From a virus: a stretch of DNA of 42,468 bases. This document shows, piece by piece, positions 999 through 32,811 of this stretch. The notes beneath the pieces are model-generated. The model saw only the letters and a list, made by a program, of their open reading frames with translations, was not told the DNA's origin and searched no databases. The stretch is from the IMG/VR virus record IMGVR_UViG_3300035670_000470, positions 1-42,468 of that record; one strand, written 5' to 3'. The position numbers and the translations under genes were made by a program. Every line of letters starts with the position of its first letter. Within the stretch, counting starts at the first letter, position 1.

Positions 999-3258
999 AG
1001 ACGACACCTCCTAAAGTGTCCTGAGGGGTGGGTAGACGAAGTGCGATCTCCGCATAATTGGTGACTGCATCGATGGCTTTGGCCCCGATATTACCGGAAT
1101 GTACTGTGCGTTGATAAAAGTTGTCCGGGGTCTCACCCAACACAATAAAGGGCTGCATCCCCACGAACTCGTAGGGGTTCAGTGGGGTGATGGTTTCAAG
1201 TGACTTGCGAATGTCCTCGAGCTCTTTGAACTGCTGCTCGGCCAGGAGGTTGAATGCCTGCAGTTGGCCCTGGTAGTCCTGGGCCATGCGCATGTACTCA
1301 TTGCCCGAAGCGTTCGCAAAGCCTGCGGATACGGTGAGCATCTGGGTTGCCATTGAGGCTTCCAGACTCCCTGAAGCCAGGTAGTCGAAGCCGCCGTAGA
1401 GGATAGCGGCGATGGCCAGGTACATGGCGATGTCTGCCCCAAGCTCCTTGGCCACAAACTTGAAGCCCTCCTGCATCGCCAGGGCAACCACGATCTCCGT
1501 GACAATGGCGATGACCGCAGCGAGTACCTGGCCTGCTTTGATTGCCAGGGCAATGGCCTCGAAGCGGCCGGTGTACGCGGTAATCGCGATCGCTGCGATG
1601 ATCAGCACCACCTTGAACGCACCGCGCTGATACCACTTCACCTTCTGCGTCACCCGACTGTTGAATACCAGGTGAAGTGAGGTGGTATAGAGCTTCTCGC
1701 GTTTGTGTATCGGGAGGCTCTTGGCAATCTCCAGGTCGATTGGGATCAGCAGACGATCTTCACCGATCTTGGCCGTCACTGAGTGACCCTCCCAGATGTC
1801 GTACTTCAGGGCCAGGTTGTAGACCCACACCTCCTCATAGGTGCTGGCAGTGATCTGTTTTCGGTACACCAGGATCGGAGTTTCTTTGCGCCTGAACAGG
1901 CCTCCTTGTACAGGCAGGCTCTTATCAGCCTTGGCTCGGTAGCTCGAGTAGGTGCCCTCGATCCCGATCCGGCCGGCAATCACCTTGCGCTGGACATTGC
2001 TCATGCTCAGGACTTGCTTGAAGTCCCGGTCTTTCAGAGTGATCGCTCTGGCCCCACTCCCTGTGGTGTTGAAGCTACTGAGGCTTGCCTGACTGAACAG
2101 CCCTCCGATGGAAGTAGGTCGGGTAGCACTGGTTTCTGCCTGTACCCGTGCCCCGGCCAAGACAGCGATATTACGGAAGTATTCGAACAGGTAGCGCACC
2201 TCGATGGGGTCCTTGCTGTCTGCGCGCACGCCCATCATCAGCACAGCCTGTTCGATCTGCCCTACATCAGGGTTGTCGTTTATCTCCTTCCCAAGGTCGG
2301 TGTAATCGATCCCGATGTGCTCGAGCAGCTTGGTGGAGGTCTTGTGTAGTGCGGTGCCCTCACGAGACGGATGGGCCAAGTTCTCCTTCCTGCTCCGGAA
2401 AAACACGAAGGGGAAGTAGGTGCCAGAGCCCTTGAAGCCAGGATCATGGAGCATGTCCAGGGTCGGGTACTGCCCGGCTCCGCTACGGTAGGTCCAGTAC
2501 TTGATCACCGTCTTACCTGACTGCGTATACCGGTATCTCACCTGGTAGTAGTCGGCGTCGAGGTCCTCGTTCTGCATGTTGATGATCAGGTCCTGGGTCT
2601 TCGATACCGCCCCTTCCTTCCAGGTCAGGATGACCCGGGCCCCTTCGAAAGTGGTGATCTCCGGTGCGGTGTATTGCTTGAACTGCCCCAGGATCTCGTT
2701 CATCGGTTCGTCTTCGGAGTAGCCACCACTTTCCGGATCCCCGAACACTTCATCGAAGATCTCCGGATCCGCCTCCTCGAAGCTCTCCACGGTGTATGCA
2801 GGCACGATGTCCCTCACATAGACCTTGGCTTTCTTCTGGGCCGAGAACGCAGTAACTTCGTTGGTGGCCGTGTCGTATCCATGCTGGTTGGTCAGCACCA
2901 TCCGAGCGTAGTGGCTGTTGTTAAGCACCCCGAACCGAGCGTAGTCAATCGTCACCGTACGTCCTTCCAGGACGTTGATGACCCCCTGCACGATGTTGGT
3001 CAGGCTGCTTGGCTTGATCAGGTCGGTGTTGGGCAGGCCGTGGGTGTAGGTGGTTCGGCCGTACTTGTGCATCTTCTCAAAGCTACGTGCAGGACTGCTG
3101 TACAGGCCCTCCACGATGGTGTCGCCCATGGAGGCCCGGCTGCCCACGACGGCACGCAGGACGGAAGCCATGAGCGTCTCAGGTACGTGCTCTCGCTCAA
3201 TGATCCGCACCACCTGGGTATCGACGGACGTCTTCTTCTTGCTGCTGAAAATCCCCAT
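991..3258 (-). CDS. Large virion protein with C-terminal hydrophobic helices (putative ejection/channel protein)
   Basis: This encodes 755 residues from ATG 3258 (MGIFSSKKK), four bases after an AGGAGG; the ATG 15 bases further upstream precedes the ribosome site and is rejected. The first ~500 residues are mixed alpha/beta with many Tyr and Arg. Near residues 545-640 lie two to three long hydrophobic helices (around VVLIIAAIAITAYTG, VLAAVIAIVTEIVVALAM and IAMYLAIAAILYGG), unusual for a capsid protein and suggesting insertion into the host envelope or a channel role during DNA ejection. It sits between the coiled-coil virion protein and the small gp52-like gene, where N4-like phages carry the gp53/gp54 virion proteins. 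The assignment to virion and ejection function is inference from position and hydrophobicity. Confidence 0.75.
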   Translation of the reverse strand: MGIFSSKKKTSVDTQVVRIIEREHVPETLMASVLRAVVGSRASMGDTIVEGLYSSPARSFEKMHKYGRTTYTHGLPNTDLIKPSSLTNIVQGVINVLEGRTVTIDYARFGVLNNSHYARMVLTNQHGYDTATNEVTAFSAQKKAKVYVRDIVPAYTVESFEEADPEIFDEVFGDPESGGYSEDEPMNEILGQFKQYTAPEITTFEGARVILTWKEGAVSKTQDLIINMQNEDLDADYYQVRYRYTQSGKTVIKYWTYRSGAGQYPTLDMLHDPGFKGSGTYFPFVFFRSRKENLAHPSREGTALHKTSTKLLEHIGIDYTDLGKEINDNPDVGQIEQAVLMMGVRADSKDPIEVRYLFEYFRNIAVLAGARVQAETSATRPTSIGGLFSQASLSSFNTTGSGARAITLKDRDFKQVLSMSNVQRKVIAGRIGIEGTYSSYRAKADKSLPVQGGLFRRKETPILVYRKQITASTYEEVWVYNLALKYDIWEGHSVTAKIGEDRLLIPIDLEIAKSLPIHKREKLYTTSLHLVFNSRVTQKVKWYQRGAFKVVLIIAAIAITAYTGRFEAIALAIKAGQVLAAVIAIVTEIVVALAMQEGFKFVAKELGADIAMYLAIAAILYGGFDYLASGSLEASMATQMLTVSAGFANASGNEYMRMAQDYQGQLQAFNLLAEQQFKELEDIRKSLETITPLNPYEFVGMQPFIVLGETPDNFYQRTVHSGNIGAKAIDAVTNYAEIALRLPTPQDTLGGVVYV

Positions 3259-3315
3259 CCAGCCTCCTATCAAGAAAAGGGGGCCAGTGGCCCCCTTGGT
3301 ACTGCCTGGCTTGGT

Positions 3316-4884
3316 TTACGCCCCCACGCCACTGAGCAGCTTGTTGATCACCCTTCCTACATGGGCATCGCTGAGCTGGTTGGTGGTGTTGGCCGAGGTG
3401 CCCTCGTCGGTGGTGCGACGGACGGTCCAGGTATCCACCAGCACCTTGGCCGCCTTCTGCTCTGCATCCCGCATCAAGCCAGTGGCCTGAGCCTGGTGCA
3501 GGGCCTTCTGCCGGCCGATCACACTGTCCGCAGCCACACCTGTCGGCTGCACCTGGGCACGCTCCGTGACGGTCTTCTGGCCCAGGAGCGCGGTCTCTGC
3601 CACGGTCTTGAGCTTGGTTTCCATCAGCACGTCGAACTCGGCCTGGAGCTTGCAGATCTGCTTGTCGAGGACCTCGTTCTCCTTGACGGCATTGAGGCGC
3701 TGCTGCTGCGTCAGTGCGGTCTGGGCATCGATCCTCAGCTTCTCTGCAGTGAGGTTGGTGCGCTGCTGCGCGATCAGCAGGGTCTCGGCAGCGGTCTTCT
3801 TCTCCTGCTGGCCCAGCAACACCACCTCGGCCTTGAGCTTCGCTTTCTGCTCGACCAGGAGTTCGTTCTCCTTCTCGACCTTCTCGATCTCCTTACGGGT
3901 CAGGTCGTGCTGAGCCCCCATCAGCTTGATCTCGGCATCGGTCTTCTCGATGCCCTTGAGCATGACGAGGTTCTCGGTGACCGCGTTCTTGGCCTGCTGG
4001 TCGACCAGCTTGGTGCGTGCCTTGGTGTGGAGGATCTCCTCGATCATGTTCAGCTTCTGCTGTTCCTTGACCTGGGTATCCACCGTCACGTTGGCGGTCT
4101 CTGCCACCAGCTTCAGGCGCTGCTGGGTACTCAGCGCGATCTGCTCGGTGATGTGCTCCCGCTCCTTGGCCATGTTCAGGGCCTGCTCGGAAACCAGATC
4201 CGTCTGCGCTTTCACGTAGAGGGTGTCGGCATCCAGCTTGGCCTGCTGCTTGATCATGGTGACGTTCTCGGTCACCGCATTGGCCGCCTGCTGGTTGGTC
4301 AGCTTGGTTTGGGCCTGGATCAGCAACTTCTGCTCGAGGGCGTTGGCGGTCTCGGCCTGGATCTGAGCGGTCTGCGCCAGGGTCCGCTTGTCCTCGTTGA
4401 CGAGGTTGGCGGTCTGCTGCAGGGCCTGGGCAGTGAGGGCATCGGTGCGCAGCTTCTCAGCCACGGCATTGATGACCTGCTGTTGGATCAGGCTGGTTTG
4501 GGCTTCGGTCTGTGCCTTCTCCGCTACCAGGTTGTCGAGCTTCTGCACGGACAGGTTGATCTCTGCCCCCAGCAGTTCGATCTCCTTCCCGGTCTTGGCC
4601 ACCTGGGCGTCCAGCAAGCCTTGCTGCTTACGCTCGGTCTCGGCCTGTTCCCGCAGCAGCTCAGCTTGGGCATCGGCCCGCTGTCGCTCCAGGAGGAAGG
4701 TGATGGACTGCTGCATGACCGCGGTCATGGAGCCAAGGTAGACCTCGGCATAGTCCGGCCCCTTGATGCGTCCCTTCGAATACTCTTCGTGAAGGTGGGC
4801 CTTCGTTGCCCGCATGAGCTCATCAAAAACGCCACCCCCAGAGAGGGTGGCTTCAGTGAGATGCTCGGTAGTGATTTCTGCCAT
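3316..4884 (-). CDS. Long coiled-coil virion protein with ~21-residue repeats
   Basis: This encodes 522 residues starting [14 protein letters not shown], with GAGGT upstream of the ATG. After a ~75-residue N-terminal head, residues ~80-440 form one long coiled coil very rich in Gln, Ala, Thr, Leu and Lys. Successive segments begin AQTSL, AQTAQ, AQTKL and AQTDL about 21 residues (three heptads) apart, some separated by an extra two heptads; two segments read almost the same ([10 protein letters not shown] and [10 protein letters not shown]). The tail (residues ~440-522) is less repetitive. It lies in the minus-strand virion operon beside the capsid gene, matching a coiled-coil structural gene in N4-like phages. 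Its role as an internal or neck structural protein is inferred. Confidence 0.8.
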
Positions 4885-25937: not shown

Positions 25938-27074
25938 ATGACGACTGCAGCCGCCATAGCTGTGCCCGTGGAGTGCCCCGAGAAGGCGCTTAATAAGACC
26001 AAGATTGCCCTCATGGGCAATCATGACCTGGTGTTCTTCACCACCGTCTGCCTGAGCCTGAAGCACAGCTTCGATGACACCATCCCCACGGCCTGCACCA
26101 ACGGCCGTTGGATCAAGTACAACACCGCCTTCTTCATGAAGCAGACCCCCGCCAAGCGGCTGGGCCTGATGGTCCACGAGATCATGCACGTCGCCTACAA
26201 CCACATGGGCCGGCTGCTGGGCAAGGACATGACAAAGTGGAACTACGCCACCGACTACGTCATTAACCTGCAGATCCTCGACATGGGCCTGGAGCTACCG
26301 GCCGGAGGCCTGGTCGACCGCCAGTACGAGGGCATGTCCGCAGAGCAGGTCTACGACCTGATTCCCGATCCTCCGGAGGATCCGGCTGCTCAGCACTTCG
26401 AGATGAGCGATGGCGAAGACCCCAAGGCCCTCGAGGAGCACATCACCGACATCCTGGTGAAGGCTGCCACCCAAGCCAGGATGAGCGGCAAGCCGGGGAC
26501 CATCCCGGGCGACATCCTGATCATGCTCGACAAGCTGCTCAATCCGGTCCTGCCGACCAAGGTGCTGCTCAAGCGCTTCGTGGATGCCACCGCCCGGGAG
26601 GACTACTCCTGGCAGCGTTTCAACCGTCGCTACTTCCCCAAGCACTACCTGCCCAGTCTCTACAGCGAGTCCTTGGACCACGTGGCCGTGGCGGTGGATG
26701 CCTCGTGCTCGGTCACCGATGACGAGTTCCTGCGCTCGGTTTCCGAGATCGCCGGGACCTTCCGCTCCGTGCGGCCGAAGAGAATCAGCGTGGTCGTCTT
26801 CGATACCGGCATCCGGTCGGTGCACAAGGTGCGCAACATCAATCAGTTGCTGCGCATCGAGTTCAAGGGACGCGGGGGTACGGCCATCGGCCCGGTCATG
26901 CAGTGGGCCAAGGAGAACCGCCCCAAGGTGCTGCTGGTGCTCTCCGACGGGGAGTTCGGCTTCCGTGAGGTGGAGAACCCCAAGGTGCCCATCCTGTGGG
27001 CCATCAACAATCATCCTGGCTTCGAGTTCAAAGCCCCGTTCGGCAAGGTGGTCCGCTATGGAGAACCGATCTGA
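25938..27074 (+). CDS. VWA-like protein with metallopeptidase motif (DUF2201-type, N4 gp25-like)
   Basis: This encodes 378 residues. The N-terminal domain has a zincin motif HEIMHVAYNH (residues 80-89), giving His80, Glu81 and His84. The C-terminal domain has a VWA/MIDAS-like start VAVDASCSV (Asp254, two Ser), then FDTGI, GRGGTAIGP and VLLVLSDGEF. This two-domain layout is that of DUF2201 proteins, which pair with MoxR ATPases; the ATPase is at 22933. It probably acts in a chaperone or assembly machine, with unknown substrate in N4-like phages. The gene overlaps the next one by 17 bases. Confidence 0.9.
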   Translation: MTTAAAIAVPVECPEKALNKTKIALMGNHDLVFFTTVCLSLKHSFDDTIPTACTNGRWIKYNTAFFMKQTPAKRLGLMVHEIMHVAYNHMGRLLGKDMTKWNYATDYVINLQILDMGLELPAGGLVDRQYEGMSAEQVYDLIPDPPEDPAAQHFEMSDGEDPKALEEHITDILVKAATQARMSGKPGTIPGDILIMLDKLLNPVLPTKVLLKRFVDATAREDYSWQRFNRRYFPKHYLPSLYSESLDHVAVAVDASCSVTDDEFLRSVSEIAGTFRSVRPKRISVVVFDTGIRSVHKVRNINQLLRIEFKGRGGTAIGPVMQWAKENRPKVLLVLSDGEFGFREVENPKVPILWAINNHPGFEFKAPFGKVVRYGEPI

Positions 27075-27489: not shown

Positions 27490-28737
27490 ATGAACCAGAT
27501 GACCCTGACCGCTGGCCAGCAGGCCGGCTACGACGCGTTTGCCAATTTCCTGATGGAGCCCTTGGAGACCGTGTTCGTGGTCGAAGGCTACAGCGGGACG
27601 GGGAAGACCACCCTGGTGAAGACCATGCTCGAGCGCCTGCCTGGCATCTACCAGACCATGCGCCTGATCGATCCCGACTACGAGGCACCCGAGCTGGTCC
27701 TCACCGCGACCACCAACAAGGCCGCAGAGAACTTCAGCCAGATCACCGGCCAGCAGGTCAAAACGATCCAGTCCCATCTAGGCCTACTGGTGCGCTACGA
27801 CAACCGCACGGGTAAGAGCAAGCTGGTGCCCAAGCCCAACAACGAGCCCCAGCGAGACCAGCTGCTGTTCATCGATGAAGCCAGCTACATGGACCAGCCG
27901 CTGCTCAACTACACCTTCCGCTACACCCGCAACTGCAAGATCGTACTGATCGGGGATCCGGCTCAGCTGCTGACCGTGGGCTGCGAGAAGAGCCCGGTGT
28001 TCAGTGCTGGCTTTCCGACCGCCAAGCTCACCGAGGTGGTACGTCAGGCCGGGGGCAGTCCGATCACCGATCTGGCCACGCTGTTCCGCACCACCGTCAA
28101 CACCGGGGAATGGTTCCGCTTCGTTCCTGATGGCAACCAAGTAGCCTGGCTTCCCCGCGACCAGTTCGAGACGGAGGTCATCAAGGAGTTCACCCGACCT
28201 GACTGGCACCACAACGACAGCAAGGTACTGGCGTGGACCAACAAATGCGTGATCGCCTACAACAAGGCCATCAGCAACCACGTCACCGGTGATCCCAACT
28301 TCCAGGTGGGCGACTACGCGATCTGCAACAGCTACATGTACTCCAAGGCCTGTTCGATCAAAACCGACCAGACGGTGTGCATCACCGACATCAGCGAACC
28401 CTCTGTTCAGCACTTCGTGAAGGGGCGCTTCTACACCCTCGACGGGAAAGGTCGCTGGTTCATGCCCGACAACCTGGCTGAGAAGAAGGCAGCCATGGCC
28501 CTGGCCAAGAAGGAAGAGCGGTTCTGGCACTTCCAGGACATGACCGAAAACTGGATCGATCTTCGGGCTGCCTACGCCTGTACCATCAACAAAGCCCAGG
28601 GCAGCACCTACGATCGGGTCTTCATCGACCTGGACGATGTGAAGCGCTGTACCAATGCCAACCAGCTGGCTCGCATGCTCTACGTGGGTGTGAGTCGCGC
28701 CCGCTTCCGTGTGGTTCTCACTGGAGACCTTGTCTAA
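27490..28737 (+). CDS. SF1 DNA helicase, RecD/Dda type (N4 gp37-like)
   Basis: This encodes 415 residues. Motif I is GYSGTGKTT (33-41), motif Ia lies around LTATTNKAAENF (70-82), motif II LLFIDEAS (125-132), motif III GDPAQLLTVG (155-164), and motifs V/VI near the C-terminus are ACTINKAQGSTYDRV and MLYVGVSRARFR. This is a compact RecD/Dda-like 5'-3' helicase and would unwind DNA at the phage fork. It is followed directly by the gp38-like gene and DNA polymerase, the same order as in N4. Confidence 0.94.
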   Translation: MNQMTLTAGQQAGYDAFANFLMEPLETVFVVEGYSGTGKTTLVKTMLERLPGIYQTMRLIDPDYEAPELVLTATTNKAAENFSQITGQQVKTIQSHLGLLVRYDNRTGKSKLVPKPNNEPQRDQLLFIDEASYMDQPLLNYTFRYTRNCKIVLIGDPAQLLTVGCEKSPVFSAGFPTAKLTEVVRQAGGSPITDLATLFRTTVNTGEWFRFVPDGNQVAWLPRDQFETEVIKEFTRPDWHHNDSKVLAWTNKCVIAYNKAISNHVTGDPNFQVGDYAICNSYMYSKACSIKTDQTVCITDISEPSVQHFVKGRFYTLDGKGRWFMPDNLAEKKAAMALAKKEERFWHFQDMTENWIDLRAAYACTINKAQGSTYDRVFIDLDDVKRCTNANQLARMLYVGVSRARFRVVLTGDLV

Positions 28738-29246
28738 TGAATCCCAACGTCCGTTCCCGGTCCGAATTTGTGGGGCATGTCATCGAGCAGGTGTATGCCC
28801 CGGCCATAGCCAAACAGAAAGCCATCCTCGACCAGATCATCATCGACAACACCGCCCTGCTGGGCAGTAGCAGCTTCTCCTTCAACTTCCTGGGCGAGAC
28901 CTACCGCATGAACTCCCGCGAGCCTTTGCCGCGGCGAGTCAATCGGCTGGCTCCCCAGCTGCACGAACGCATGCGGGAGTTCCTGAGGCAGCGTGCCGAG
29001 ATCCTGGTGGAGCAGCCCTACATCAATGGCTTCTTCCGTCAGGTGGTGTCGGTCGGCAGGAACTACACCGACTACATCGCGCTGACCCCCAGCGTGGTGC
29101 ACCAGATCATCCATAGCATCAAGAACGCCCTGCCTCAGGGCGAAGCCAGCCTGGATCCGGATGAGGTGGATGCGTTCCATGTGAAACACCGCCAGAGCAT
29201 GTTCATGGTGCAGCAGCGCATGGCGCTCAACCTCATATTGCAGTAA
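28737..29246 (+). CDS. N4 gp38-like protein of unknown function
   Basis: This encodes 169 residues starting MNPNVRSRSEFVGHVIEQVY, its ATG sharing a base with the helicase stop. It is helical and basic (RMREFLRQRAEILVEQPYIN, VVHQIIHSIKNALPQGEASL). In N4-like phages a conserved gene of about this size lies between helicase and DNA polymerase. Position, rather than a motif, supports the call. Its last codons lie inside a TGCAAT repeat cluster that precedes the polymerase. Confidence 0.75.
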   Translation: MNPNVRSRSEFVGHVIEQVYAPAIAKQKAILDQIIIDNTALLGSSSFSFNFLGETYRMNSREPLPRRVNRLAPQLHERMREFLRQRAEILVEQPYINGFFRQVVSVGRNYTDYIALTPSVVHQIIHSIKNALPQGEASLDPDEVDAFHVKHRQSMFMVQQRMALNLILQ

Positions 29247-29281: not shown

Positions 29282-31360
29282 ATGCGTCATCTTATCTTCG
29301 AGCAGTCCGACACCTACCCTGTCGTCGTCCTGATCAAGACCAGCTACCTGCGTCAGTACGAGTTGGAGCAGAACTACCTGCTGCCCCTGGTGCCCGAAGT
29401 CCCGATCAAGGACGTGGTGGCCATCGACCTGGCTTACGACCAGAACGGCAAGGCCCCGGCCAAGCTGATCAAGGAGTACCTGGAAGAGCTGCTGCCCGCC
29501 ATCGACTCGATCGGAGGCAAGTTCATCTACTGCGCGGATGCCACCTACTTCAAGGCGCTGACCAAGCAGACCAAGGGCAAAGCCGAGAGCCACATCGGCT
29601 ACGTCGTGCCTTGCCGCATCCCGGGCTATGAGCACCTCCAGGTCATCCTGGGGGTGAACTACGGTCAGCTGGTCTACAACCCAGATCAGTACCACCGGCT
29701 GGACCTCACCCTTAAGACGCTCAAGACGGCCTACTCCGGCAACTACCAGGAGCTGGGTCTGAACATCATCCACGGGGCTGAGTATCCCAAGAGCCCCACC
29801 GCTATCGCGGACGCCCTGCGCGGTCTCATGATCCACGAGACCCTGTCGTGTGACATCGAGGGCTTCTCCCTGCACCCCATGGACGCAGGCATCGGCACCA
29901 TCGCCTTTGCCTGGGACCACCACCATGGACTCGCCTTTCCGGTCGACTACCTCACGCTCCCTGAGCCTGAGGACGGTCTCCATGGGGTGCAGCGCGAGAA
30001 CCGCACTGTCAGGAAGCTGCTCAAGGAGTTCTTCACCCGCTATCAAGGCCGGCTGCGCTTCCACAACGCCGCCTACGACGTGCGCTCGCTGATCTACGCC
30101 CTGTGGATGGAGCACGCTGAGGACTGGGAGGGGCTGCTCGAGGGCCTACACATCATGTGCCGGTCCTTCGATGACACCAAGGTGATTGCCTACCTGGCCC
30201 TGAACTCCACGGCCGAGGTGAAGCTCAGCCTCAAGGACCTGGCCCACGAGTTCGCCGGCAACTACGCCCAGGAGGAGATCAAAGACATTCGGAAGATCCC
30301 CCAGGACGAGCTGCTCGAGTACAACCTGGTCGATTGTCTGGCCACCAACTACGTCTACGACAGGCACTACCCGATGATGGTGGCCGATCAGCAGGAGGAG
30401 CTCTACACGACCCTGATGCTGCCCAGCCTCAAGACCATCATCCAGATGGAGCTGGTGGGCATGCCGATGGATCCGGACAAGGTCCAGTACGCCAAGGAGG
30501 AGCTACAGAAGGAGGAAGCCAGCTACCTGGCGGTGTTCCAGAACAACCCGATCATCCAGCAGCTGGAGAAGACCCTGACCGATCGGGCCTGGGAGAAGGA
30601 CTATGAGGACCGCAAAGCCAAGGCCAAGAATCCGGACAAGATCATGCCCAAGCTGCGGGCTGGTTTCCCCACCACCGAGTTCAACCCGAACTCGGGCCCT
30701 CAGCTGCAAATCCTGCTCTATGAGCAGCTTGGCTTGCCGGTCATCGACAAGACCAAGACCAAGCAGCCGGCCACCGGTGGGGACACCCTGGAGAAGCTGG
30801 TCCACCACACCACCGATCCTGCGGTGGTGGAGCTGATCGAGGCCTTGATCGGATACGCTGGGGTGGCCAAGATCCTGACCGCATTCATCCCCAAGTTCGA
30901 GGAAGCCAAGAGCAAGGAGTCGGCTCACGTCACCTGGCTTCACGGCAACTTCAACCTGGGGGGCACGGTCTCCGGCCGGCTAAGCTCGAGCAAACCGAAC
31001 CTGCAGCAGATCCCCTCGAACAGCAAGTACGGCAAGCTGATCAAGGATGCCTTTGTGGCCCAGCATGGTTGGATCATGGCGGGTGCCGACTTCAACAGCC
31101 TGGAGGACTACATCAGTGCGCTGACCACCAAGGATCCTGCCAAATTGGATGTGTACCTCAGGGGCTTTGACGGTCACTGCTATAGGGCATACGCATACTT
31201 CAAGGATCAGATGCCTGATATTCAACAGGCAGAGCCTGAAGATAGGTGCTTTAAGGTAGTCTCAAATGGCCAAACTTTCTTCTGCAAAAGTGGGGATCTT
31301 ATTGTAGACTTAAACGGAAACAAGATTCCTGTGGAGGACTACTATGCGGCCAATTCCTGA
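29282..31360 (+). CDS. DNA polymerase A, N-terminal piece (exonuclease + palm motif A)
   Basis: This encodes 692 residues with TTAGGAG upstream. The 3'-5' exonuclease motifs are SCDIEGFSL (Asp191, Glu193), FHNAAYD (Asn262, Asp266) and EYNLVDCLA (Tyr347, Asp351). The polymerase part has GTVSGRLSSSKPNLQQIPS (561-579) and motif A AGADFNSLEDY (Asp603), as in N4 gp39. After about residue 655 the homology ends in a ~37-residue tail (CFKVVSNGQTFFCKSGDLIV and more), and a stop follows where the HNH gene begins. Motifs B and C are encoded after the HNH gene. Base composition becomes A/T-richer from about 31140, consistent with imported DNA. Confidence 0.92.
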   Translation: MRHLIFEQSDTYPVVVLIKTSYLRQYELEQNYLLPLVPEVPIKDVVAIDLAYDQNGKAPAKLIKEYLEELLPAIDSIGGKFIYCADATYFKALTKQTKGKAESHIGYVVPCRIPGYEHLQVILGVNYGQLVYNPDQYHRLDLTLKTLKTAYSGNYQELGLNIIHGAEYPKSPTAIADALRGLMIHETLSCDIEGFSLHPMDAGIGTIAFAWDHHHGLAFPVDYLTLPEPEDGLHGVQRENRTVRKLLKEFFTRYQGRLRFHNAAYDVRSLIYALWMEHAEDWEGLLEGLHIMCRSFDDTKVIAYLALNSTAEVKLSLKDLAHEFAGNYAQEEIKDIRKIPQDELLEYNLVDCLATNYVYDRHYPMMVADQQEELYTTLMLPSLKTIIQMELVGMPMDPDKVQYAKEELQKEEASYLAVFQNNPIIQQLEKTLTDRAWEKDYEDRKAKAKNPDKIMPKLRAGFPTTEFNPNSGPQLQILLYEQLGLPVIDKTKTKQPATGGDTLEKLVHHTTDPAVVELIEALIGYAGVAKILTAFIPKFEEAKSKESAHVTWLHGNFNLGGTVSGRLSSSKPNLQQIPSNSKYGKLIKDAFVAQHGWIMAGADFNSLEDYISALTTKDPAKLDVYLRGFDGHCYRAYAYFKDQMPDIQQAEPEDRCFKVVSNGQTFFCKSGDLIVDLNGNKIPVEDYYAANS

Positions 31361-32057
31361 TTACGAGAATGAATACTTGATATCAGAAACCGGTGAGGTT
31401 ACGCGCAGAGAAACAGGCCGGGTTATTCGGCCCTCTCTGAACCCCCAAAATGGCTATCTTTACGTCGGGCTGTGGAAAGACAACAAGGGCAAGACCTGCT
31501 CAGTTCACAGGCTTGTAGCGAGGACTTTCATCCCCAATCCCGATCAAAAGCCTTTTGTTAACCACAAAGACAGCAATCGAACCAACGCAAATAAAAACAA
31601 CCTTGAGTGGGCCACCCAATCTGAAAACATCCAGCATGGGTATGATTTCGGGAACATGAGTCAAAGAGTCCAACGAAGGTTTAAGGAGTTCGAGCTTGAT
31701 GTAATTCTTCAAACCTTTTTGTCTGGCATCACCATGACGGCCATTGCCCGGCAACATGAATGTGGGCTTTCTAGGTTAACCATCAACCTCCGTAAAAGAG
31801 CGGCCGATACCGGTCTGCTGGAAGACTTTGAAAGTCAACTTAGACTCCAGAAAGTATCCCGAAATACAAAGGCAAACGAAAACAAAAAGAAAAGGGTAAG
31901 TCAGTACACCCCTCAAGGAGAACACATTGCCACCTTCAGTAGCCTGAACGAAGCAGCAAAAGCTCTGGGTAAAAAGAGTGCAGGGTCTATTTCTAATGCC
32001 CTCAATCCTCTCCACCCTCAAGAAAAGGCGTTTGGTTTCTTATGGAAATACACGTAG
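31344..32057 (+). CDS. HNH homing endonuclease (NUMOD4-HNH-NUMOD1)
   Basis: This encodes 237 residues. A NUMOD4-like start (YENEYLISETGEVTRRETGR, then YLYVGLWKDNKGK and VHRLVARTFIPNP) leads into the HNH core VNHKDSNRTNANKNNLEWAT (His74, Asn residues, Glu88-Trp89). A C-terminal NUMOD1 helix-turn-helix follows (VSQYTPQGEHIATFSSLNEA, then KALGKKSAGSISNAL). It nicks or cuts DNA to spread into intact polymerase genes. GGAGG stands six to seven bases before the ATG. It overlaps the polymerase N piece by 17 bases and the next polymerase piece by 16 bases. It is clearly A/T-richer than the genome, a mark of transfer. Confidence 0.95.
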   Translation: MRPIPDYENEYLISETGEVTRRETGRVIRPSLNPQNGYLYVGLWKDNKGKTCSVHRLVARTFIPNPDQKPFVNHKDSNRTNANKNNLEWATQSENIQHGYDFGNMSQRVQRRFKEFELDVILQTFLSGITMTAIARQHECGLSRLTINLRKRAADTGLLEDFESQLRLQKVSRNTKANENKKKRVSQYTPQGEHIATFSSLNEAAKALGKKSAGSISNALNPLHPQEKAFGFLWKYT

Positions 32058-32170
32058 GTGCTGACTGTTCTATAGAGCAGATAGAAGCAGCTGAATACAA
32101 CGCATCTCAAATCAACCGGATCAAAAAGGAGTATGGGGCTCTTCGTCAGAAATCGAAGAGCCCCACCTAG
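32042..32170 (+). pseudogene. DNA polymerase A fragment ending in the middle of motif B
   Basis: From ATG 32042, inside the end of the HNH gene, 42 residues are read. After MEIHVGADCSIEQIEAAEYN they give INRIKKEYGALRQKSKSPT, the beginning of the polymerase fingers helix (motif B, RxxxKxPT). A TAG stop (32168-32170) then cuts it. The continuation FALTYAGT is in the -1 frame beginning at 32173. Five extra bases (TAGCT) between the two parts explain the break. It is either a mutation or a site of -1 frameshifting. Confidence 0.7.
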
Positions 32171-32199
32171 CTTTTGCTCTTACGTATGCAGGGACTTGG

Positions 32200-32811
32200 A
32201 TGACCTTGGTTAAGAATCTGGGTTTCTCCGAGAAAGAGGCAAAAGAAATCGAGAAGGCGTACCACGACCTTTACAAGGTCTCGGATGAGTGGGTGAAGGC
32301 CAAGATGGATCAGGCCTCCAAGGATGGCTACGTGGATGTGGCGTTCGGTCTACGCGTCAGGACGCCCCTGCTGGCTCAGGTGATCCGAGGGCACAGGACC
32401 ACGCCCTACCAGGCAGAGGCCGAAGCCAGGACCGCTGGTAACGCCCTGGGCCAGTCCTACGGGCTGCTCAACAACCGGGCCGCCAACGCCTTCATGGAGA
32501 AGGTGTGGGCCAGCAAGCACCGCACCTCGATCCTGCCGATCGCCCAGATTCACGATGCCATCTACCTCCTGATCAAAGACGACCTGGAGGTGGTGGAGTG
32601 GGTCAACGAGAACCTGATCGCTGAGATGCAGTGGCAGGACCTGCCCGAGATCCAGCATGACACCGTCAAGCTGGGTGCCGAGCTCGACCTGTTATGGCCA
32701 TCTTGGGCCCACCCGGTGACGCTGCCCAACGAAGCCAGTGCCGAGAAAATCCTGGCCCTCTCCCGAGAGCACCGTCAATCCCTGGAGGACGAGTTTCGGG
32801 AAGCTGCCTGA
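32200..32811 (+). CDS. DNA polymerase A, C-terminal piece (motif C)
   Basis: The first ATG (MTLVKNLGFSEKEA) gives 203 residues. The frame is open from 32095, so the ten residues before this ATG (FALTYAGTW, end of motif B) are also encoded. Motif C is AQIHDAIYLL (His118-Asp119), and the text YVDVAFGLRVRTPLL is typical of N4-like polymerases. With the N piece at 29282 it would rebuild a family A polymerase. A start at ATG 32200 would lose the key motif B residues. Whether an upstream start, frameshift or trans-complementing pieces are used cannot be told from the sequence. Confidence 0.85.
   Translation: MTLVKNLGFSEKEAKEIEKAYHDLYKVSDEWVKAKMDQASKDGYVDVAFGLRVRTPLLAQVIRGHRTTPYQAEAEARTAGNALGQSYGLLNNRAANAFMEKVWASKHRTSILPIAQIHDAIYLLIKDDLEVVEWVNENLIAEMQWQDLPEIQHDTVKLGAELDLLWPSWAHPVTLPNEASAEKILALSREHRQSLEDEFREAA

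Follow-up and report, generated by a model that had tools for sequence, protein, structure and literature searches.

The window analysed here is the full 42,468 bases of IMG/VR virus record IMGVR_UViG_3300035670_000470. Judged from its sequence, it encodes a Schitoviridae-type (N4-like) family A DNA polymerase whose gene is divided, between motifs A and B, by a free-standing HNH homing endonuclease gene. A second break, caused by five surplus bases that begin with a stop codon, lies inside motif B of the downstream polymerase piece. The same arrangement occurs in eight more metagenomic phages, and we consider it probable that the endonuclease gene belongs to a mobile homing cassette with an insert in motif B that prevents self-cleavage and that ribosomes skip through programmed translational bypassing.

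The interrupted motif B and its recurrence

The initial annotation had placed the exonuclease and motif A before the HNH gene and motifs B and C after it, with gene overlaps of 16-17 bases, a ribosome site belonging to the HNH gene and A/T-rich flanks. Our analysis agrees with this outline. PF00476 matches and the sequence itself assign the polymerase parts to these positions, the HNH gene overlaps the N piece by 17 bp and the C piece by 16 bp and is preceded by GGAGGA (Table 1), and the G+C content drops from about 0.60 to 0.41-0.55 in a tract at about 31150-32260, returning to 0.57-0.69 beyond it. Uninterrupted polymerases, with which a comparison had been suggested, exist among the relatives, and the pieces found here flank the endonuclease gene. 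The downstream polymerase had, however, been taken for a single piece, and this did not hold, as a TAG codon and a frame change lie inside motif B.

The first open reading frame (ORF1) of the C piece encodes MEIHVGADCSIEQIEAAEYNASQINRIKKEYGALRQKSKSPT and then ends at this TAG, whereas the continuation FALTYAGTW...AA (ORF2) lies in the -1 frame relative to ORF1. The window reads CCC ACC [TAGCT] TTT GCT CTT ACG TAT, with exactly five surplus bases, the deletion of which gives SPT-FALTY; relatives have an unbroken KAPTFALTY at the same place. Motif B is the O helix of family A polymerases. A lone sequencing error, a random indel or an assembly error was rejected as the source of TAGCT, because eight further phages carry a stop-containing insert in the same motif, in matching surroundings.

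These phages were recognized among 165 distinct polymerase loci that were gathered and screened for interruptions, with one further locus found by DNA pattern. Alignment scans placed intact polymerases on top, and the split ones emerged with C-piece queries. Loci were chosen by the broken motif and not by the hairpin described below, although the hairpin of the window had been noticed beforehand. In each of the eight, the N piece bears a tail, an HNH gene is present, and ORF1 of the C piece stops at the motif-B insert (Table 1). The inserts are of 5, 6 (L310) or 9 nt (L208) and occupy two sites about four codons apart, and their removal gives a canonical motif B in all nine loci. L228, L318 and L419 share the TAGCT of the window, and five of the nine inserts are TAGCT or TAGCTT. 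ORF1 comprises 42 codons in the window and 42, 45, 46, 47, 47, 47, 47 and 38 in the others; a longer start in L318 would give 61 codons, and the start in L203 is GTG. A stop codon directly follows the proposed takeoff codon in eight loci, and the C frame is open to its natural end in 9/9. The takeoff and landing codons are identical in L012, specify the same amino acid in L346, L203 and L208, and are CCT and CTT in L310. No cultured phage with the arrangement was found among the phage-collection matches listed (at most 60 of several hundred records) or among genome contigs.

Some of these polymerase genes contain other breaks. Besides the cassette, that of L203 carries, at about 1760-2600, a second HNH insertion (NSL|EDYISAL) resembling a group I intron. 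L012 (near 4620), L346 and L019 (near 255-303) have a further, HNH-free break near residue 510, which in L012 is an ATGA stop-start overlap.

Local signals, endonuclease association and mobility

An 11-bp hairpin abuts the proposed takeoff codon of the window, and its score was matched by none of 4000 synonymous recodings. A strong stem, with a score of 22-30, ends 0-2 nt upstream of the takeoff codon in eight of the nine loci (2 nt in L346). At the two homologous positions of 146 control polymerases the stem score was 8.8 (standard deviation 2.8) and 10.4 (standard deviation 2.9), and a score of at least 20 was reached in 8/9 insert loci versus 0/146 and 1/146 controls. In the eight hairpin loci, the real score was reached in 0-22 of 4000 synonymous recodings of the same peptide. 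The hairpin follows the takeoff position: where the insert lies further on, a different hairpin abuts the takeoff codon, and in L208 both takeoff and hairpin are located one codon earlier. Between the window, L228 and L203, which share site 1, double compensatory changes are seen at three of eight base pairs and every pair is preserved, a result reached in 16 of 500 shuffles. For these three sequences the covariation is suggestive of a conserved hairpin at site 1; the site 2 hairpins vary too little to add much.

The same eight loci have a Shine-Dalgarno-like match of 5-7 nt located 30-35 nt upstream of the takeoff codon. Matches of at least 5 nt occur in 16 and 20 of the 146 controls, and one control has a match of at least 6 nt. 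With the hairpin folded out, the Shine-Dalgarno-like sequence of the window stands 3 nt from the takeoff codon. The account of recoding in PMC5009743 includes stimulation of +1 frameshifting by a spacing of 3 nt, and the account in PMC3014915 includes T4 genes 25 and 38, in which hairpins shorten the Shine-Dalgarno distance. By analogy, this geometry may also apply to the locus in the window.

An HNH gene is located at this split site in all nine insert loci, with NUMOD4 and HNH_3 domains where Pfam was applied and assignment by alignment in the others. The motif-B insert accompanies nine of nine splits with a NUMOD4-type HNH gene and none of the five without one (Fisher p 0.0005). These five, L252, L331, L382, L403 and L320, are split at the same place and have an intact motif B. 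The split contains no HNH gene in L252, other genes in L382 and L403, and an HNH_3 protein without a NUMOD4 match in L320. From these five splits we conclude that the two-piece polymerase persists without the NUMOD4-type endonuclease. In L382 (IMGVR_UViG_3300028797_001397), which has no HNH gene, a strong hairpin near 3350 precedes the intact motif B; its score of 19 is the highest among the site-1 controls, and it is perhaps the relic of a lost insert.

The fifth of these splits, in L331 (IMGVR_UViG_3300035698_001335), has at about 2860-3370 a gene resembling Tad2, a Thoeris anti-defence protein (PF11195, E 5e-22), in the usual place of the HNH gene, and thus carries defence-related cargo inside a polymerase gene.

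The HNH proteins of L012, L346, L318 and L419 group with those of Acinetobacter phage nACB1 and L434 (50-59%), which sit in intron-like insertions within motif B. This grouping suggests that motif B is the HNH target and that the insert is the protection. L434 itself (Gastranaerophilales metagenome-assembled genome contig CALVEJ010000102.1) is split at the site of the window and additionally has the motif-B intron-like insertion with the related HNH.

The insert carriers are scattered among the polymerase lineages, which indicates mobility. In a FastTree tree of C pieces, the ten insert rows (the nine loci and L422) need ten changes, at least seven of which are forced by well-supported branches. 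The C pieces of L203 and the intact L201 are 99% identical; between the two, the DNA is replaced from just past TTKDPNKL to about the gap, and L203 has exactly five bases, TGACT, between ACC and TTC. L418 and L422 agree fully as far as the end of the insert and begin to differ within about 20 nt of it. Such tracts are expected if homing starts at a break in motif B and involves co-conversion, the right boundary being certain to about 30 nt only, since motif-B DNA is conserved.

Proposed mechanism, rival explanations and known systems

The production of this gene in pieces by a homing endonuclease is well supported by the uninterrupted relatives, the lack of a group I intron match in the window, the scattered insert, the co-conversion-like tracts and the failure to detect a second polymerase in eight records. 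The polymerase would be made as two polypeptides, an N piece with a new tail and a C piece with a new N-terminal extension, which presumably reassemble. The most likely target of the HNH enzyme is the coding sequence of motif B, the insertion point of the introns that bear its relatives, and the copy carrying the cassette would be protected by the TAGCT in its target. As the insert brings a stop codon and a frame shift, translation would have to skip it. The peptidyl-tRNA would detach while ACC occupies the P site and the stop codon the A site; the hairpin would fold behind the ribosome and pull the mRNA, assisted by the internal Shine-Dalgarno sequence; and the tRNA would re-pair 5 nt downstream, so that UUU, the F of FALTY, would be read next. 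Exact skipping is favoured because one type of event explains nine loci and yields a normal motif B. With somewhat less confidence, we also lean towards the broader view that this family of HNH cassettes marks its cleavage site for immunity with a miniature bypass signal (Shine-Dalgarno sequence, hairpin, takeoff codon and a gap of 5-9 nt led by a stop codon), in which case ribosome hopping would be recurrent and transmissible and would enable homing elements to settle in the most conserved motif of replicative polymerases while sparing the phage.

Several observations weigh against bypassing as proposed here. L310, whose 6-nt insert is in frame, has no hairpin, and in L208 the takeoff codon is followed by AGG and only then by TAA. 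With takeoff at ACY and landing at GCU in the window, L228, L318 and L419, the tRNA-Thr could re-pair by wobble only. The gap of 5-9 nt has no room for a takeoff stem-loop such as that of T4 gene 60, and the hairpin is closer to the takeoff codon than the 5' stem-loop of T4. The HNH protein of L203 groups with those of the other split site, described below, so that HNH gene and insert are not strictly co-inherited; the distant HNH protein of L310 is a second exception to the grouping with motif-B HNHs. Nearly all instances are uncultured contigs.

A catalytic helix broken by a stop codon and a change of frame would ordinarily denote a pseudogene, and the carriers found are all metagenomic contigs, so that the insert could be a disabling mutation, such as an imprecise repair scar, left after HNH invasion had split the polymerase gene. 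We regard such decay as unlikely: the C frame is open to its natural end in every locus, hairpin and Shine-Dalgarno sequence are positioned to the nucleotide at two different sites, and five of nine inserts are TAGCT or TAGCTT. Moreover, a second DNA polymerase, the finding of which would have contradicted the initial annotation, was not detected in eight records (the window, L228, L208, L310, L203, L318, L346 and L012), where PF00476 matched the pieces of the split gene only and PF00136 and PF07733 had no match; three of these records are of 69-74 kb, and the rest, including the window, are shorter and possibly fragments. Marginally less probable still is another form of recoding, either a -1 frameshift at CCC ACY or stop codon readthrough, with a few extra motif-B residues being tolerated. 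A 5-nt insert does bring the target into the -1 frame, the C that precedes CCC in the window allows -1 re-pairing, and internal Shine-Dalgarno sequences stimulate -1 shifts at a spacing of 9-14 nt. Yet L208 and L310 need no frame change, the slip possible in the window is not shared by L228, where T precedes CCC, the hairpin is on the 5' side of the site, and a -1 shift would add residues within the O helix (SPHLAFALTY).

RNA splicing or intein trans-splicing would be suggested by the group I-type introns with HNH genes in the same gene of the relatives pYD6-A, nACB1 and L434, and by the resemblance of the N-piece tail to intein block A. No group I intron was found in the window with the Rfam model at gathering or permissive thresholds, in line with the initial annotation. 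The tail was rejected as part of a split intein, as its nucleophile position is occupied by C, V, A or other residues in relatives, no C-intein is present, and the extra residues ahead of the C piece number only about 20. Furthermore, neither route would remove the 5 nt in motif B, which leaves splicing very improbable. Equally improbable in our view is a polymerase of three polypeptides, namely the N piece, a 42-residue ORF1 peptide and a C piece made by downstream reinitiation. The stop codon and Shine-Dalgarno-like sequence could serve reinitiation, and the window has an ATG at 32200, but the O helix would be broken between SPT and FALTY and FALTYAGTW would be lost, and in L012 the C frame lacks ATG, GTG and TTG from the gap to 6084.

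The initial annotation had likened the window to Aeromonas phage Aeh1, in which the insertion of mobE places a homing endonuclease gene within the essential nrdA gene and two polypeptides result (PMC2988022). The likeness to genes in pieces stands, but a two-piece model is insufficient, as the second piece is itself broken in motif B by a stop codon and frame change; PMC2988022 describes no such downstream break in nrdA. The closer analogue is, for this reason, T4, where, as recounted in PMC5009743, PMC3014915 and PMC11194080, the HNH gene mobA splits the topoisomerase gene and a 5' stem-loop assists the bypass of a stop-led 50-nt gap after codon 46 of gene 60. In both systems an essential replication gene has been divided by an HNH gene, the insert is proposed as protection against the endonuclease and begins with a stop codon near codon 46 of the downstream piece (38-47 here), and a stem-loop lies on its 5' side. 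They differ in that the T4 case concerns a topoisomerase, a 50-nt gap and one lineage, whereas a DNA polymerase, gaps of 5-9 nt and many lineages are concerned here; in our loci the internal Shine-Dalgarno sequence lies upstream of the hairpin and the takeoff codon is mostly Thr. Bypassing is proven in T4, and is the interpretation that we favour for the polymerase.

A phage DNA polymerase of two polypeptides is known from the split gene 43 of Aeromonas phage 25, whose products 43A and 43B co-purify and are active and which is likewise associated with a homing endonuclease gene (PMC2988022). That polymerase belongs to family B, the endonuclease is of the GIY-YIG type (seg), and PMC2988022 describes no bypass for it. 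Closer in sequence organization are the Schitoviridae polymerases split after KVY (Escherichia phages SP5M and PD205; L185, L215, L218 and L304), which have an overlapping NUMOD4-type HNH gene and a similar tail and C-piece extension; their split site is different and motif B is intact, so bypassing is unnecessary. The HNH genes of nACB1 and L434 are related and concern the same polymerase motif, but lie in an intron-like insertion at the site itself, with no small stop-led insert.

The portion of the open-licence full-text literature covered here does not describe HNH-linked bypassing in a phage DNA polymerase, and an earlier report elsewhere is possible. As described in two reviews (PMC5009743, PMC3014915), T4 gene 60 is the one proven efficient translational bypass of a phage, with an inferred origin. 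Many instances, a natural empty site (L201 compared with L203), splits without the HNH gene and a possible relic in L382 would allow the origin of bypassing, its spread and its minimal signal to be compared and tested. They would also imply that the catalytic helix of the only DNA polymerase detected in a phage can harbour a selfish gene, in genes that gene callers would list as fragments or pseudogenes.

Gene context and features of the window

The polymerase gene follows a helicase gene (27490-28737) and a small gene without assigned function (28737-29246), an order known from Schitoviridae phages. The N piece comprises 692 amino acids, its polymerase part ending past motif A, and is 40-54% identical to other N pieces and about 50% identical to intact Schitoviridae polymerases. 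Among the HNH proteins of split polymerases, that of L228 is nearest to the HNH protein of the window (47%); HNH scans with the window and L012 proteins returned mostly unrelated HNHs. No phage tRNA was found in the window.

Table 1. Features of the split polymerase locus in the window, followed by the motif-B inserts of the other eight loci (insert in brackets, after the last codon read)
Feature	Positions	Strand	Basis
DNA polymerase N piece: exonuclease and polymerase domain up to motif A, then foreign C-terminal tail	29282-31360	+	PF00476, E 7e-30
N-piece tail coding sequence CFKVVSNGQTFFCKSGDLIVDLNGNKIPVEDYYAANS, carrying the HNH ribosome site	31247-31357	+	comparison with intact and split relatives
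Ribosome site GGAGGA of the HNH gene	31333-31338	+	sequence
Free-standing HNH homing endonuclease gene, NUMOD4 and HNH_3	31344-32057	+	Pfam, E 1e-8 and 8e-7
C piece ORF1: ATG, N-terminal extension, motif-B start RQKSKSPT, TAG; 42 codons to takeoff	32042-32170	+	sequence
Internal Shine-Dalgarno-like AAGGAG, 33 nt ahead of the takeoff codon	32126-32131	+	sequence match
11-bp hairpin GGGGCTCTTCG-TCAGAAAT-CGAAGAGCCCC, abutting the takeoff codon	32135-32164	+	minimum free energy -21.7 kcal/mol
Proposed takeoff codon ACC (Thr)	32165-32167	+	inferred from alignment of nine loci
5-nt coding gap TAGCT; stop TAG 32168-32170, proposed landing triplet GCT 32170-32172	32168-32172	+	absent from 146 control polymerases
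C piece ORF2: rest of motif B (FALTY), motif C, C terminus	32173-32811	+	PF00476, E 1e-13 with gap skipped
L228 insert, ACT[TAGCT]TTC
L203 (IMGVR_UViG_3300011802_000007) insert, ACC[TGACT]TTC
L310 insert, CCT[TAGCTT]ACG
L012 insert, ACG[TAACG]TAC
L346 insert, ACG[TAACA]TAT
L318 insert, ACT[TAGCT]TAT
L419 insert, ACC[TAGCT]TAT
L208 insert, CTC[AGGTAACTT]ACC

The N-piece tail is absent from intact polymerases, while split polymerases have a tail of about 35-45 residues in addition to the N-terminal extension of the C piece. The tails of split polymerases matched no Pfam family, and a tail query retrieved no relatives from the phage collection. An AlphaFold2 model of the N piece of the window (12 sequences) depicts the tail as a small beta structure, with block means of the predicted local distance difference test of 49-76 for residues 641-692; the model is poor for the severed palm and finger region (28-54 for the blocks in 551-640, with one block at 74). 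The tail may help the polymerase to reassemble.

An intact polymerase in L423 (Acinetobacter sp. A47 contig; the same region as L222) has an extra VEAYASTTDTKERVFI between QMPDI and VNSI. These residues resemble the start of the tail and are possibly a scar left by a cassette since lost. A gene of the window at 25938-27074, upstream of those for replication, encodes a putative metallopeptidase domain (DUF2201) and a VWA-like domain (PF13203, PF09967).

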